This document shows, piece by piece, positions 33,498 to 49,270 of a DNA stretch of 50,292 nt. The translations under genes and the position numbers were made by a program. How positions within the stretch are numbered: position 1 is the stretch's first letter; each line of letters opens with the position of its first letter. The notes under the pieces were generated by a model. That model did no database searches. It was not told the DNA's origin and was given only the letters and a program-made list of their open reading frames with translations. The stretch is from Candidatus Kuenenia stuttgartensis (GTDB lineage: Bacteria; Gemmatimonadota; Gemmatimonadetes; Gemmatimonadales; Gemmatimonadaceae), in NCBI GenBank assembly GCA_943330235.2, contig CALQGY020000013.1, positions 1 through 50,292 on the forward strand, in the 5' to 3' direction.

Positions 33498-34271
33498 TTA
33501 TTCCGCCACGCGCACATGCGCGCCTTCGCGGGCGTATTTCACGTCCGCGAGTCCGAAGAGTGAAAACAACTTGATGTACATCCAGCCGATATCGAATTCG
33601 AACCAGCGATGGGCAAACTTCGCGGAGTGCGGATCGGCGTGGTGATTGTTGTGAAGCTCTTCGCCGCCGATGATGATGCCGAACGGCGAGATGTTACGGC
33701 TCTCGTCCTTGACGTCATGGTTGCGATAGCCGAGCGCGTGCCCGATCCCGTTGATGACGCCTGCGGCCCAGAACGGAATCCAGATCATCTGAATGCCCCA
33801 CACGATGGGGCCGATGAAAAAGCCGAAGAGCCAGATGTCGATGGCCAGCATGAACACGATGCCGACGCTGCTGCGCTTGTCCAGCAGATGCCGCTCCATC
33901 CAGTCATCGGGCGTACCTTTGCCGTACTTCTCTAGCACGCCGGGCTGCCGCACCGCGTTGCGATAGAAAAATGCGCCCTTGAGCAGGATGTTGCGTAGCC
34001 CATCAACCACTGGGCTATGCGGATCGCCCTCGCGATCGGCAAACGCATGATGCTTGCGATGGCAGGCGACCCATTCCTTGGTGCGGATGGCCGTCGTCAG
34101 CCACAACCACACGCGCATCGGCATGGACACGAGCCAGTGGAAATCGACGCCACGATGCGTCTGCGCGCGATGCAGGAACAGCGTCACGCAAATGTTCGTG
34201 AGGTGTCCCGCAACCATCACGAATAGAACCGGCTTCCACCAGTCGGTTCCCCAGCTTCCAAACTCGGGCAT
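33498..34271 (-). CDS. Acyl-CoA (delta-9 type) fatty acid desaturase
   Basis: 257 residues from ATG 34271; a longer frame to 34325 is not needed. It is a membrane di-iron enzyme with three His boxes in order: HRAQTHR (HxxxxH), HRKHHAF (HxxHH) and HNNHHADPHS. Two membrane pairs flank them (ILFVMVAGHLTNICVTLF; VGIVFMLAIDIWLFGFF). It introduces a double bond in acyl chains, probably for cold adaptation of the membrane. It is the promoter-proximal gene of a pair with yggX. Its upstream 360 bases hold only the palindromic repeats described below; no promoter is confidently assigned. Confidence 0.9.
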   Translation of the reverse strand: MPEFGSWGTDWWKPVLFVMVAGHLTNICVTLFLHRAQTHRGVDFHWLVSMPMRVWLWLTTAIRTKEWVACHRKHHAFADREGDPHSPVVDGLRNILLKGAFFYRNAVRQPGVLEKYGKGTPDDWMERHLLDKRSSVGIVFMLAIDIWLFGFFIGPIVWGIQMIWIPFWAAGVINGIGHALGYRNHDVKDESRNISPFGIIIGGEELHNNHHADPHSAKFAHRWFEFDIGWMYIKLFSLFGLADVKYAREGAHVRVAE

Positions 34272-34388
34272 CGATACACTCCAGACGGGTACGTGCGGGT
34301 CGCCACCGCAGACAACACGCATCACCGAAAGCTAGCCGAGCGCGCGGCCTTCGCTACCCGCCAGCAGAGTGACGCGCTCCGTGCTAGG

Positions 34389-34518
34389 TCTGGCGAAACC
34401 GCCTTGCACGGAAACGCGCGGAAACAGCCGGAAACGACGGGATCACCACATGCATGGTGTTTTTTTCCGTGCTGTTTCCCGCGATATCCGCGCGTTTCCG
34501 TGCAAGGCCGTTCCGCGG
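34389..34518. repeat. Palindromic repeat, copy A
   Basis: About 130 bases. Perfect inverted 22-base arms lie at 34401-34422 and 34487-34508. Internal 9-base arms GGAAACAGC (34420-34428) and GCTGTTTCC (34471-34479) extend the pairing, and the centre holds CACCA/TGGTG. The arms are built from GGAAAC hexamers spaced nine bases apart. A folded single strand would be a long stem with a small loop. Confidence 0.9.
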
Positions 34519-34539
34519 ACCAACCAGTCCACGAACACG

Positions 34540-34667
34540 TCTGGCGAAACCGCCTTGCACGGAAACGCACGGAAACAGCCGGAAACCGCGGGATCACCAC
34601 ATCTATCGTTTTGATCCCGTGCTGTTTCCCGCGTTATCCGCGCGTTTCCGTGCAAGGCCGTTCCGCA
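34540..34667. repeat. Palindromic repeat, copy B, overlapping the GxxExxY 3' end
   Basis: About 150 bases after copy A, with 22-base arms at 34552-34573 and 34637-34658 (one mismatch). Its centre is different from copy A: GGGATCA and TGATCCC can pair around ccacatctatcgttt. The right arm contains the stop codon and the last residues of the GxxExxY gene. The 360-base stretch 34272-34633 holds nothing else that I can support. Confidence 0.9.
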
Positions 34668-35053
34668 GTCCAGATCATGCGCTTTACGCCGGGAGTATCA
34701 CCGACATTCAGAATGAGCCCGACCGACAGCCCCGAAGCACGAAGGTAGTTGCGCAACTGGCGCTCATGCGGCGGCTGGATTTTATCGCAGGTCTTGAGCT
34801 CCACGATCACCAACTGTTGCACCAGCAGATCCGCCCGGAAATCGCCCACGACGATCTCGCGGTACCGCACCCGAAGCGGTGCCTCGCGCTCTGCAGCGAT
34901 GCCGCGCGCCGCCAGAGCGATCTGCAACGCCCTCGTATACACGGACTCGACGAACCCCGCGCCAAGCTCGTTATAAACGTCGTAGAAGCCGCCAATCACC
35001 TGTTGCGTCAGGTGGCCGTGCGCCAAATGCAGCGCATCTCGAATTTCGCTCAT
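34634..35053 (-). CDS. GxxExxY family protein (PD-(D/E)XK-like)
   Basis: 139 residues from ATG 35053 (GTG 35056 precedes it). The defining motif is GAGFVESVYTRAL. The nuclease-like strands follow: YREIVVGDFRADLLVQQLVIVELKTCD, in which Asp and Glu-X-Lys (ELK) sit as in PD-(D/E)XK enzymes, and LRNYLRASGLSVGLILNVGD. Family members are about 125 residues and uncharacterised; cutting of DNA is inferred only from the fold-like pattern. The final residues (TAERPCTETRG) and the TAA are encoded by the right arm of palindromic copy B, so the gene has either captured, or been delivered with, the repeat. Confidence 0.8.
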   Translation of the reverse strand: MSEIRDALHLAHGHLTQQVIGGFYDVYNELGAGFVESVYTRALQIALAARGIAAEREAPLRVRYREIVVGDFRADLLVQQLVIVELKTCDKIQPPHERQLRNYLRASGLSVGLILNVGDTPGVKRMIWTAERPCTETRG

Positions 35054-35180
35054 CACACCCTCGGCGCCGGTTCATCGGGCACCGACCATCATGTCGATGC
35101 CGCAACCGAATACAACCGATGGGCGCGTGGGACAGCGGCATCAATTTCCCGCACCGCGAAGCCCGCGAGCGCCCAGCGCG

Positions 35181-36029
35181 CTATGCCACCGATCCGGCGC
35201 GTGCCCCGCACCAAGCGATCACCTCGCGCGCGACCTCCTCGCGCGAGTAGTCCGCTGAGATAATGTGCCCGCAACCAGTCAGCCAATGAAAGACCTTGTC
35301 GCGACTCGCAATCGCCGCGAAGTGTCGCTCGGCGGACTCCGGTGCAATCCGGTTGTCATCACGCGACTGCAGGTACAAGGTTGGCACGCTCAGCTGAGGC
35401 AGCGCGGCCTCCGCGGCACGCGCCACCGTACGCAGCTCCGTCATCGTGCGCGCGGTGATCACACCGGGGTTCAGCGATTGCGCCTTAGCCTCCGGGTCAT
35501 GCAATGACCGCTCGCCACCGCTGCCCACATGATACGGCGTCGCGAACTCCAGCAGCCACGCCGTCGCGATACGCCACTGCATCGCGCGCGGCATCCCTAA
35601 AAACGGGGCCAGGAGGACCAGCGCGGACATCTCGGGATGATCGGCCGCCAACAACGTCGCCAGCGCACCACCCATCGACTGACCGCACACCACCACGGTT
35701 GAATGCGTGGCGGTCAGCGAGGCGTAGCCCTCGGCCACCGCATCCCGCCACGATGGCGCCCGCGACGCCCGGGCCATTTCCGGCAACCGCACGCCGTGTC
35801 CCGGCAACCGCGGCGCGAGGACCGTCCAGCCGGCGGCGTGCATAGCGTGCGCCAGGTAGGCCATGGATTGCGGCGTGTCATTAAATCCGTGCAACAGCAG
35901 CGCCGCCCGCTGCCCCGACTGCTCAAGTCGAATGTGGTCGGCACCGACGACTACACCGTGTGCATCTACCGAGAATCGACGTGCATGTGCGTCCTCAAAG
36001 CGTTGGCGCACCGCACGACGCGACCACAT
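35181..36029 (-). CDS. Alpha/beta hydrolase, carboxylesterase type
   Basis: 282 residues. The nucleophile elbow is VCGQSMGGALAT, the oxyanion region is LLLHGFNDTPQSM, the acid Asp is in LYLQSRDDNRIAPE and the catalytic His in LTGCGHIISADYSRE, in the order of Est30-like esterases and monoacylglycerol lipases. A short cap lies between (PFLGMPRAMQWRIATAWL). It has no signal peptide. The start ATG shares one base with the MoeZ-like stop (TGATG at 36027-36031), so it is likely co-translated. Substrate is unknown; esters of moderate chain length are usual for the family. Confidence 0.88.
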   Translation of the reverse strand: MWSRRAVRQRFEDAHARRFSVDAHGVVVGADHIRLEQSGQRAALLLHGFNDTPQSMAYLAHAMHAAGWTVLAPRLPGHGVRLPEMARASRAPSWRDAVAEGYASLTATHSTVVVCGQSMGGALATLLAADHPEMSALVLLAPFLGMPRAMQWRIATAWLLEFATPYHVGSGGERSLHDPEAKAQSLNPGVITARTMTELRTVARAAEAALPQLSVPTLYLQSRDDNRIAPESAERHFAAIASRDKVFHWLTGCGHIISADYSREEVAREVIAWCGARAGSVA

Positions 36030-49183: not shown

Positions 49184-49200
49184 CGGACGGGTGGCAACGA

Positions 49201-49241
49201 ACGACAACGGGGACGACGCCATGCGTCGTCCCCGTTGTCGT
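49201..49241. terminator. Perfect 19-base hairpin between convergent barrel genes
   Basis: Arms at 49201-49219 and 49223-49241 are perfect with loop CAT. It lies between the stops of two convergent genes (49183 and 49271) and has no T-tract on either side; it would still form a very stable stem in both transcripts. Confidence 0.7.
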
Positions 49242-49270
49242 TGATCGTGCCGCTGGCAGGAATGGACGAG

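Follow-up and report, generated by a model that had tools for sequence, protein, structure and literature searches.

RAYT transposases are defined by their HUH/Y1 transposase domain. As described in passages of PMC8049555, RAYTs are single genes that are inherited vertically, and genomes with the gene tend to carry more of the repeats. The repeats may overlap the ends of the gene, and the REP/REPIN hairpin is defined by a GTAG at its foot, according to the passages of PMC3733652 devoted to these elements. The corresponding part of the same source describes the TIRtrons, in which RAYT-like genes lie between long terminal inverted repeats, some of them forming a dispersed family. A further arrangement is that of the intervening sequences of 23S rRNA, where a small ORF of the S23/four-helix-bundle type occupies the loop of a palindrome, and for which a mobile-element origin is discussed (passages of PMC4990558).

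The GxxExxY family has no known function, and its name is rare in the open-access literature; it occurs in PMC8934634, in passages that concern reverse transcriptases. In the literature searched, mainly open-access with few subscription journals, no description of a coupling between GxxExxY genes and palindromes was found, and this coupling may be an undescribed enzyme-repeat partnership working like REP/RAYT. We propose, with evenly balanced confidence, that the GxxExxY gene and its palindromes form a REPIN/RAYT-like partnership in which a predicted PD-(D/E)XK nuclease takes the place of the transposase.

The window, that is, the whole stretch of 50,292 nucleotides analysed here, contains a GxxExxY gene at 34634-35053 on the minus strand (ATG at 35051-35053, stop codon at 34634-34636, and a GTG at 35056 as alternative start), which encodes a protein of 139 amino acids belonging to the YN subtype (YNELGAGFVESVY). 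Two imperfect palindromes of 123-124 bp, neither of them assigned to a strand, are located 3' of this gene. Copy A (34393-34516) is formed by 43-nt arms (34393-34435 and 34474-34516), 86% complementary and separated by a 38-nt loop, with the words CGGAAAC/CGGAT and a purine-rich 5' arm. In copy B (34544-34666), the arms are 46 nt long (34544-34589 and 34621-34666), 83% complementary, and enclose a 31-nt loop. The units containing both copies show 90-91% identity, with a spacing of 150-151 bp. The first-pass annotation had placed the end of the gene within copy B, in its right arm, and a second copy of the repeat beyond it, and both observations stand: the stop codon and residues 130-139 (AERPCTETRG; 34634-34666, minus strand) are encoded within that arm (34621-34666), and copies A and B are complete palindromes, both on the 3' side. 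The repeat contributes just a tail to the protein, because the conserved domain (Pfam residues 15-125) stops earlier.

On the 5' side of the gene no arm was detectable (arm score 9). Across the window four hairpins score at least 16, a threshold chosen by us, as were those of 18 and 20 used below; copies A and B are among these four and have the longest arms. A terminator-like hairpin of 20 bp, with a 3-nt loop and zero mismatches (score 20), is located at 49200-49242. Rfam gave no matches in the window at the gathering threshold, no tRNA is present in it, and neither GTAG nor CTAC occurs between 34371 and 34700. The gene is flanked on its 3' side by a desaturase-like protein (33498-34325, minus strand), whose histidine boxes were recognised by eye and for which Pfam gives nothing at E<=0.001, and on its 5' side by an alpha/beta hydrolase (35181-36029, minus strand), and these two neighbours were used as anchors for the orthologous sites.

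The protein matches the NCBIfam profile TIGR04256 with 119.6 bits, against a cut-off of 35, over residues 15-119, and PF13366 (PDDEXK_3) with 124.1 bits, against a cut-off of 22, over residues 15-125. It keeps the PD-(D/E)XK residues D75, E85-x-K87, Q99, and Y103, and the same catalytic residues were counted over 136 proteins among the matches listed (D in 136, E in 132, K in 135, Q in 132, and Y in 133). The top Foldseek matches of the predicted structure (pLDDT 90.8) were SSO0001 (E 5e-4), which we take to be a Cas4, LHK-Exo, and the Holliday-junction resolvase Hjc; the fold match of the model to known structures is weak, its best E value being 5e-4, and the PDB holds no sequence relatives of the protein at E<=1. 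The predicted fold, together with the D...E-x-K residues, places the protein in the PD-(D/E)XK superfamily, and the likeness to such enzymes suggested in the first reading is borne out by motif residues, profile matches, and the predicted fold. No HUH/Y1 transposase domain was found, Pfam returning PDDEXK_3 plus a sub-threshold Cas4, and NCBIfam returning GxxExxY alone.

The source assembly (4.02 Mb, 223 contigs) contains two GxxExxY genes. The repeat family of the window gives 44 matches in this genome with both strands counted, and match counts exceed copy counts because most copies, being palindromic, are hit on both strands. With matches at E<=1e-3, the family occupies 16 places over 15 contigs, often as tandem units, although about 14 places may be the right figure, since contigs C38 and C15, and likewise C72 and C161, share contig-end sequence, each pair resembling one broken place. 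An exact number cannot be given, since the assembly is interrupted at the repeats: contigs C132, C15, C45, C119, C38, C72, and C161 start or end in or next to the repeat family. A GxxExxY gene is present at one of these places alone, and no GxxExxY remnant was found at 11 of the 15 others, searched with flanks of up to 1.5 kb, so the repeat copies are mostly gene-less. The second GxxExxY gene, on contig 137, lies between arms built of another word (score 26).

Within the taxonomic family, 179 genomes were searched for GxxExxY, which was detected in 128 of them, and the distribution of the gene is patchy. From the best-scoring matches listed, 136 loci were compiled, 131 with both flanks; they were not drawn at random and include some orthologues of one another. 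When flanks of up to 6 kb were considered, hairpins scoring at least 20 were present within 500 bp downstream of the stop codon at 13 of 40 loci, in the 500 bp upstream of the gene at 4 of 40, and in each of the bins farther out at 0-2 of 39-40 loci. The downstream palindromes frequently start close to the stop codon, and 12 of 37 downstream hairpins, among the matches listed, begin before its end; overlap of the repeat with the gene end, as occurs in the window, is therefore not rare. Among the matches listed, a hairpin scoring at least 18 within 500 bp is present at 49 of 131 loci, inverted arms scoring at least 18 on both sides of the gene at 45, one or the other at 84, both at 10, and neither, at the thresholds used, at 47. 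Within the YN subtype, that of the window, 23 of 46 loci lack hairpin and arms at these thresholds. The flanking arms sit near the start and stop codons. A purine-rich 5' arm characterises 49 of 55 hairpins and 42 of 45 flanking arms. As controls, PIN genes showed a hairpin or arms in 3/30 cases (arms 0/30) and random positions in the same loci in 9/148 (arms 0/148), while arms were obtained in 8/1000 combinations of the upstream region of one locus with the downstream region of another, and in 0/52 flanks taken 1 kb out (threshold 16).

The scan was extended to named genomes, with the best 80 of a larger number of GxxExxY matches retained, 76 of them having usable flanks. Among these best matches, flanking arms were found at 34 loci, a hairpin at 7, either at 36, and neither, at the thresholds used, at 40. 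Random positions in the cross-phylum loci gave arms in 0/81 and hairpins in 3/81; the cross-locus control reached 18/1000, being raised because words are shared between loci. Hairpins alone are hardly enriched in this set (7/76 after the stop codon vs 5/66 and 4/65 in two distant bins). Arms occur in eight other phyla, assigned by us from the titles of the genome records, namely Pseudomonadota (alpha, beta, gamma, and zeta), Chloroflexota, Planctomycetota, Acidobacteriota, Verrucomicrobiota, Armatimonadota, Desulfobacterota, and a few Bacteroidota, most loci of this last phylum having none. In a second sample, which comprises 50 of those genomes and hence overlaps the first, arms or a hairpin were present at 40 of 65 loci. 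The coupling of gene and palindrome, originally suspected at one locus, is thus supported well past it, by the family loci and by these eight phyla.

The words that form the arms differ between protein types. The HX subtype carries a histidine at the motif (EIHRxLGPG), YN being the type found in the window. In the taxonomic family, CAGAG/CGGAG/CCGAG words and CGGAT/CAGAT/CCGAT/GGAAA words were assigned to 48 and 4 HX loci, vs 1 and 20 YN loci, respectively (Fisher 5e-13), in a table that omits 8 loci with ties or neither word and 5 of other subtypes, that includes some orthologous loci, and whose subtype and word classes were picked post hoc, once the data had been seen. Seven genomes possess both subtypes, and their 17 loci are all concordant (17/17; restricted permutation p 0.002). 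Several differently worded gene-palindrome pairs may occur in one genome. A subtype-word prediction set beforehand, made with Chloroflexota in view and tried on 50 multi-phylum genomes, went in the right direction and was not significant (p 0.076), with YN loci giving 0 GAG to 2 GAT/GAA and HX loci 17 to 5, and with 15 of 39 loci (1 YN, 14 HX) carrying words outside both classes.

A Mantel test, which is free of such classes, indicates that, in comparisons between genomes, the more alike the proteins, the more alike their arms, both in 63 cross-phylum loci (rho 0.43) and in 81 family loci (rho 0.31), with p 0.0005 in the two cases, the minimum reachable with 2000 permutations. Sharing a genome does not make arms more similar than arms from separate genomes (0.098 vs 0.136; 0.146 vs 0.171), and within single genomes word similarity was not significantly related to protein identity (rho 0.07 and 0.18). 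The arm words, then, track the type of GxxExxY protein and not the host genome.

The site of the window, beside the desaturase-like gene, was compared in 17 congeners. G059 possesses there a GxxExxY gene 53% identical to that of the window, with a CGGAT-word palindrome at the gene end. Eight of the 17 (G043, G048, G050, G051, G052, G058, G062, and G068, the hydrolase not being seen beyond the palindrome in the last four) have a palindrome scoring at least 16 and no GxxExxY gene, several of these gene-less palindromes belonging to other word families, and another 8 have no palindrome, G060 among them keeping a 24-residue match to a GxxExxY remnant. At this site, G058, G062, and G068 (loci L251, L254, and L253) share a palindrome around CTAGCCCTCAGGG...CCTGAGGGCTAG, which is followed by a different neighbour gene and may be another palindrome family. 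Neither an insertion boundary nor a target duplication was found, the intergenic regions of the 17 congeners being, by eye, too diverged to define one.

A second site, next to glyS, has an orthologous HX gene in 11 of 25 congeners (matched over 82 aa in G069). A CAGAG-type palindrome stands beside the gene in all 11 gene-bearing genomes and in 0 of the 14 gene-less ones, two of which are readable over just 212 and 120 nt; two gene-less genomes contain an unrelated long palindrome and one a short hairpin (score 14). At the glyS site of G062 and G058 (L359 and L360), very long palindromes are found, with arms of 68-73 nt made of the words GGGGAACTACGGGAGG and no GxxExxY gene.

Taking these sites into account, it could be argued that another enzyme moves the palindromes, and that the GxxExxY proteins are homing-like nucleases, settling in or beside palindromes that are their targets. 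The position of the gene between two matching arms, i.e., in a loop, at 45 of the 131 loci among the matches listed agrees with this idea, and so do the same-word palindromes that exist elsewhere without the gene and the gene-less palindromes at the window's site in 8 of 17 congeners. However, the words follow the GxxExxY protein rather than the genome, and we consider this explanation unlikely.

Regarding dispersal, the repeat of the window was searched in 29 congeners, with one near-full-length match (114 of 134 bases, 73% identity), located in G043 (C1:3889121-3889227), where a further GxxExxY gene (3889278-3889616, minus strand) has it at its 3' end. The sole match of this kind thus lies where the first reading would have the same repeat, at the 3' end of such a gene. 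In G048, one 26-nt match was obtained.

The glyS-site palindrome of G048, used as query, yielded at least 78 matches in G048, at least 89 in G050, and between 2 and 12 in each of nine further genomes. The matching genomes are 10 of the 11 gene-bearing ones (all except G054, which has a differing word) and G066, whose site is unreadable, vs 0 of the 12 readable gene-less ones; the gene's own copy is counted among these matches, there being nothing else in G069, and the positions in G044, G064, and G065 are not listed. Copies away from the gene are present in 6 of 11 gene-bearing genomes (G046, G048, G050, G051, G067, and G070) vs 0 of 12 (Fisher 0.005). Four changes of the gene label are required on the glyS tree, and supported branches force two of these; the independent contrasts on supported branches are two only, which mostly agree (with a label that counts the gene's own copy) and from which significance is unreachable. 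Moreover, similarity to the query declines with distance from G048. The link between dispersed copies and the presence of the gene is, in consequence, suggestive only. The proteins themselves form 58 within-genome pairs in the 136 loci among the matches listed, with an identity of at most 68%. Gene-less copies of the palindrome are dispersed, and the GxxExxY gene is not multiplied.

In 10 of the glyS-site orthologues, compensatory changes, in which both sides of the stem have changed and still pair, amount to 152 vs 53 in shuffles, single changes to 801 vs 1031, and broken doubles to 100 vs 84, all counted over ordered, non-independent pairs. In the pooled stems, mismatches of G.T type and of A.C type are about equally frequent (66 vs 68 in hairpins; 84 vs 89 in flanking arms), so there is no sign that the RNA strand is maintained. 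The pairing of the palindrome is maintained by compensatory change, with no RNA-strand signature.

These counts bear on the proposal that the palindrome acts in RNA-level control, through a fold at the 3' end of the transcript or through closure of the arms, the protein binding its own hairpin and limiting translation or stability, with the dispersed copies as by-products. The arms do lie near the start and stop codons, the words CGGAGG/CAGAGG resemble Shine-Dalgarno sequences by eye, and the match between protein and word could also be explained by an RNA-binding protein. Against this, the sense strand shows no excess of G.U over A.C, and gene-less copies are scattered in G048, G050, and the source genome (G000). 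The symmetry of the mismatches weakens the RNA-structure reading, which is in our opinion distinctly improbable.

A role in host functions or defence has also been considered, in which the nuclease would patrol palindromic DNA (cruciforms, or hairpins of phages and plasmids), the dispersed palindromes being regulated targets or decoys. In its favour are a weak resemblance in sequence to Cas4, a predicted fold close to those of Hjc and the lambda-type exonucleases, and the character of the gene, small, accessory, and patchily distributed. Nevertheless, the anti-phage defence library (PADLOC) gave weak Cas4/PDC-S02 matches alone (E 0.002-0.04), phage families gave no match to the GxxExxY protein, and a defence role does not predict gene-specific words, all of which makes it very unlikely. 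Finally, a coincidence in which genes and palindromes both gather in intergenic hot spots, an idea favoured by the gene-less palindromes of the window's site, several of them of other word families, and by the two gene-less genomes with another palindrome at the glyS site, is rejected as scarcely credible in view of the PIN genes, the random positions in both sets of loci, the distant flanks, the cross-locus pairs, and the link between protein and word.

It had been further suggested that the gene and the repeat travel together as one mobile unit. This part of the first-pass annotation is not supported, given the 58 within-genome pairs at no more than 68% identity, the single repeat place with a gene, the 11 other places without a remnant, and the 23 of 46 YN loci without the repeat at the thresholds used. 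An IS-like mobile unit was also rejected, because the paralogues examined are never near-identical and no remnant exists at the 11 repeat loci examined in the source genome; an IS-MITE pair would show recent, near-identical copies of the gene-bearing element in one genome, and the pairs compiled show none. In contrast, the comparison with REP sequences and their RAYTs made in the same annotation proves apt, in that the protein sets the words, the copies without the gene are scattered, and the gene is unmultiplied.

Returning to the partnership of nuclease and palindrome, a scheme can be outlined in which binding, cleavage, and copying by repair are steps that we infer. The GxxExxY nuclease would recognise its cognate palindrome, probably folded into a hairpin or a cruciform, by the short words it contains. 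Cutting at the palindrome, followed by repair, would keep the arms matched, and the same process could occasionally deposit a copy of the palindrome elsewhere, unaccompanied by the gene. The gene, for its part, would stay put, with mostly vertical inheritance and frequent loss.

The arrangement may extend to a second gene family. Loci of the four-helix-bundle family TIGR02436 (L103-L132), of the S23/IVS type, taken from genomes of the taxonomic family, show flanking arms in 20 of 25 cases at a score of at least 16 and in 19 of 25 at 18 or more; these arms consist mostly of 7- or 8-nt tandem words, unlike those of GxxExxY, and the upstream arm is purine-rich in 19 of 21 loci. The arm-gene-arm layout of TIGR02436, together with the 23S rRNA inserts with inverted ends, suggests a broader class. 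We tentatively put forward, as a possibility that we would not yet call probable, a widespread bacterial class of "word palindromes", in which unrelated small proteins (GxxExxY, S23/IVS-type) would each have their own tandem-word palindrome, with the gene in its loop or at its foot, arms rewritten at the DNA level while staying matched, and gene-less copies dispersed, the S23 inserts of 23S rRNA being one landing site.

If the coupling holds, a large orphan family, GxxExxY, gains a testable substrate, its own palindrome; one class of dispersed repeats is explained; and partnerships of the REPIN/RAYT kind would have arisen also with an unrelated enzyme.

Comparison with known systems places the GxxExxY pairs close to several of them. 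The predicted fold and the D...ExK motif resemble those of Cas4, lambda exonuclease, and Hjc, the structural similarity being modest, and we know of no partner palindrome of the GxxExxY kind for these enzymes. The 23S rRNA intervening sequences likewise enclose a small ORF, in the loop that a long palindrome forms; unlike the GxxExxY loci, they lie in rRNA helices, are cut by RNase III, and encode a different protein fold. With the TIRtrons, the GxxExxY loci have in common a gene between inverted repeats, but the enzyme belongs to a different superfamily, and the arms are arrays of words matched to the protein. As for REPIN/RAYT, the GxxExxY protein is a predicted PD-(D/E)XK enzyme and not a HUH/Y1 transposase, its palindromes have, in place of a GTAG foot, short words and a purine-rich 5' arm, and several differently worded gene-palindrome pairs are possible per genome; having neither the Y1 domain nor the GTAG foot, they lie outside REP/RAYT proper. 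The likeness resides in a gene that does not copy itself, in dispersed non-autonomous palindromes, in repeats that stand beside the gene end or overlap it, and perhaps, the GxxExxY evidence being suggestive only, in a higher number of repeats wherever the gene occurs, as described in the cited passages on RAYTs (PMC8049555, PMC3733652).
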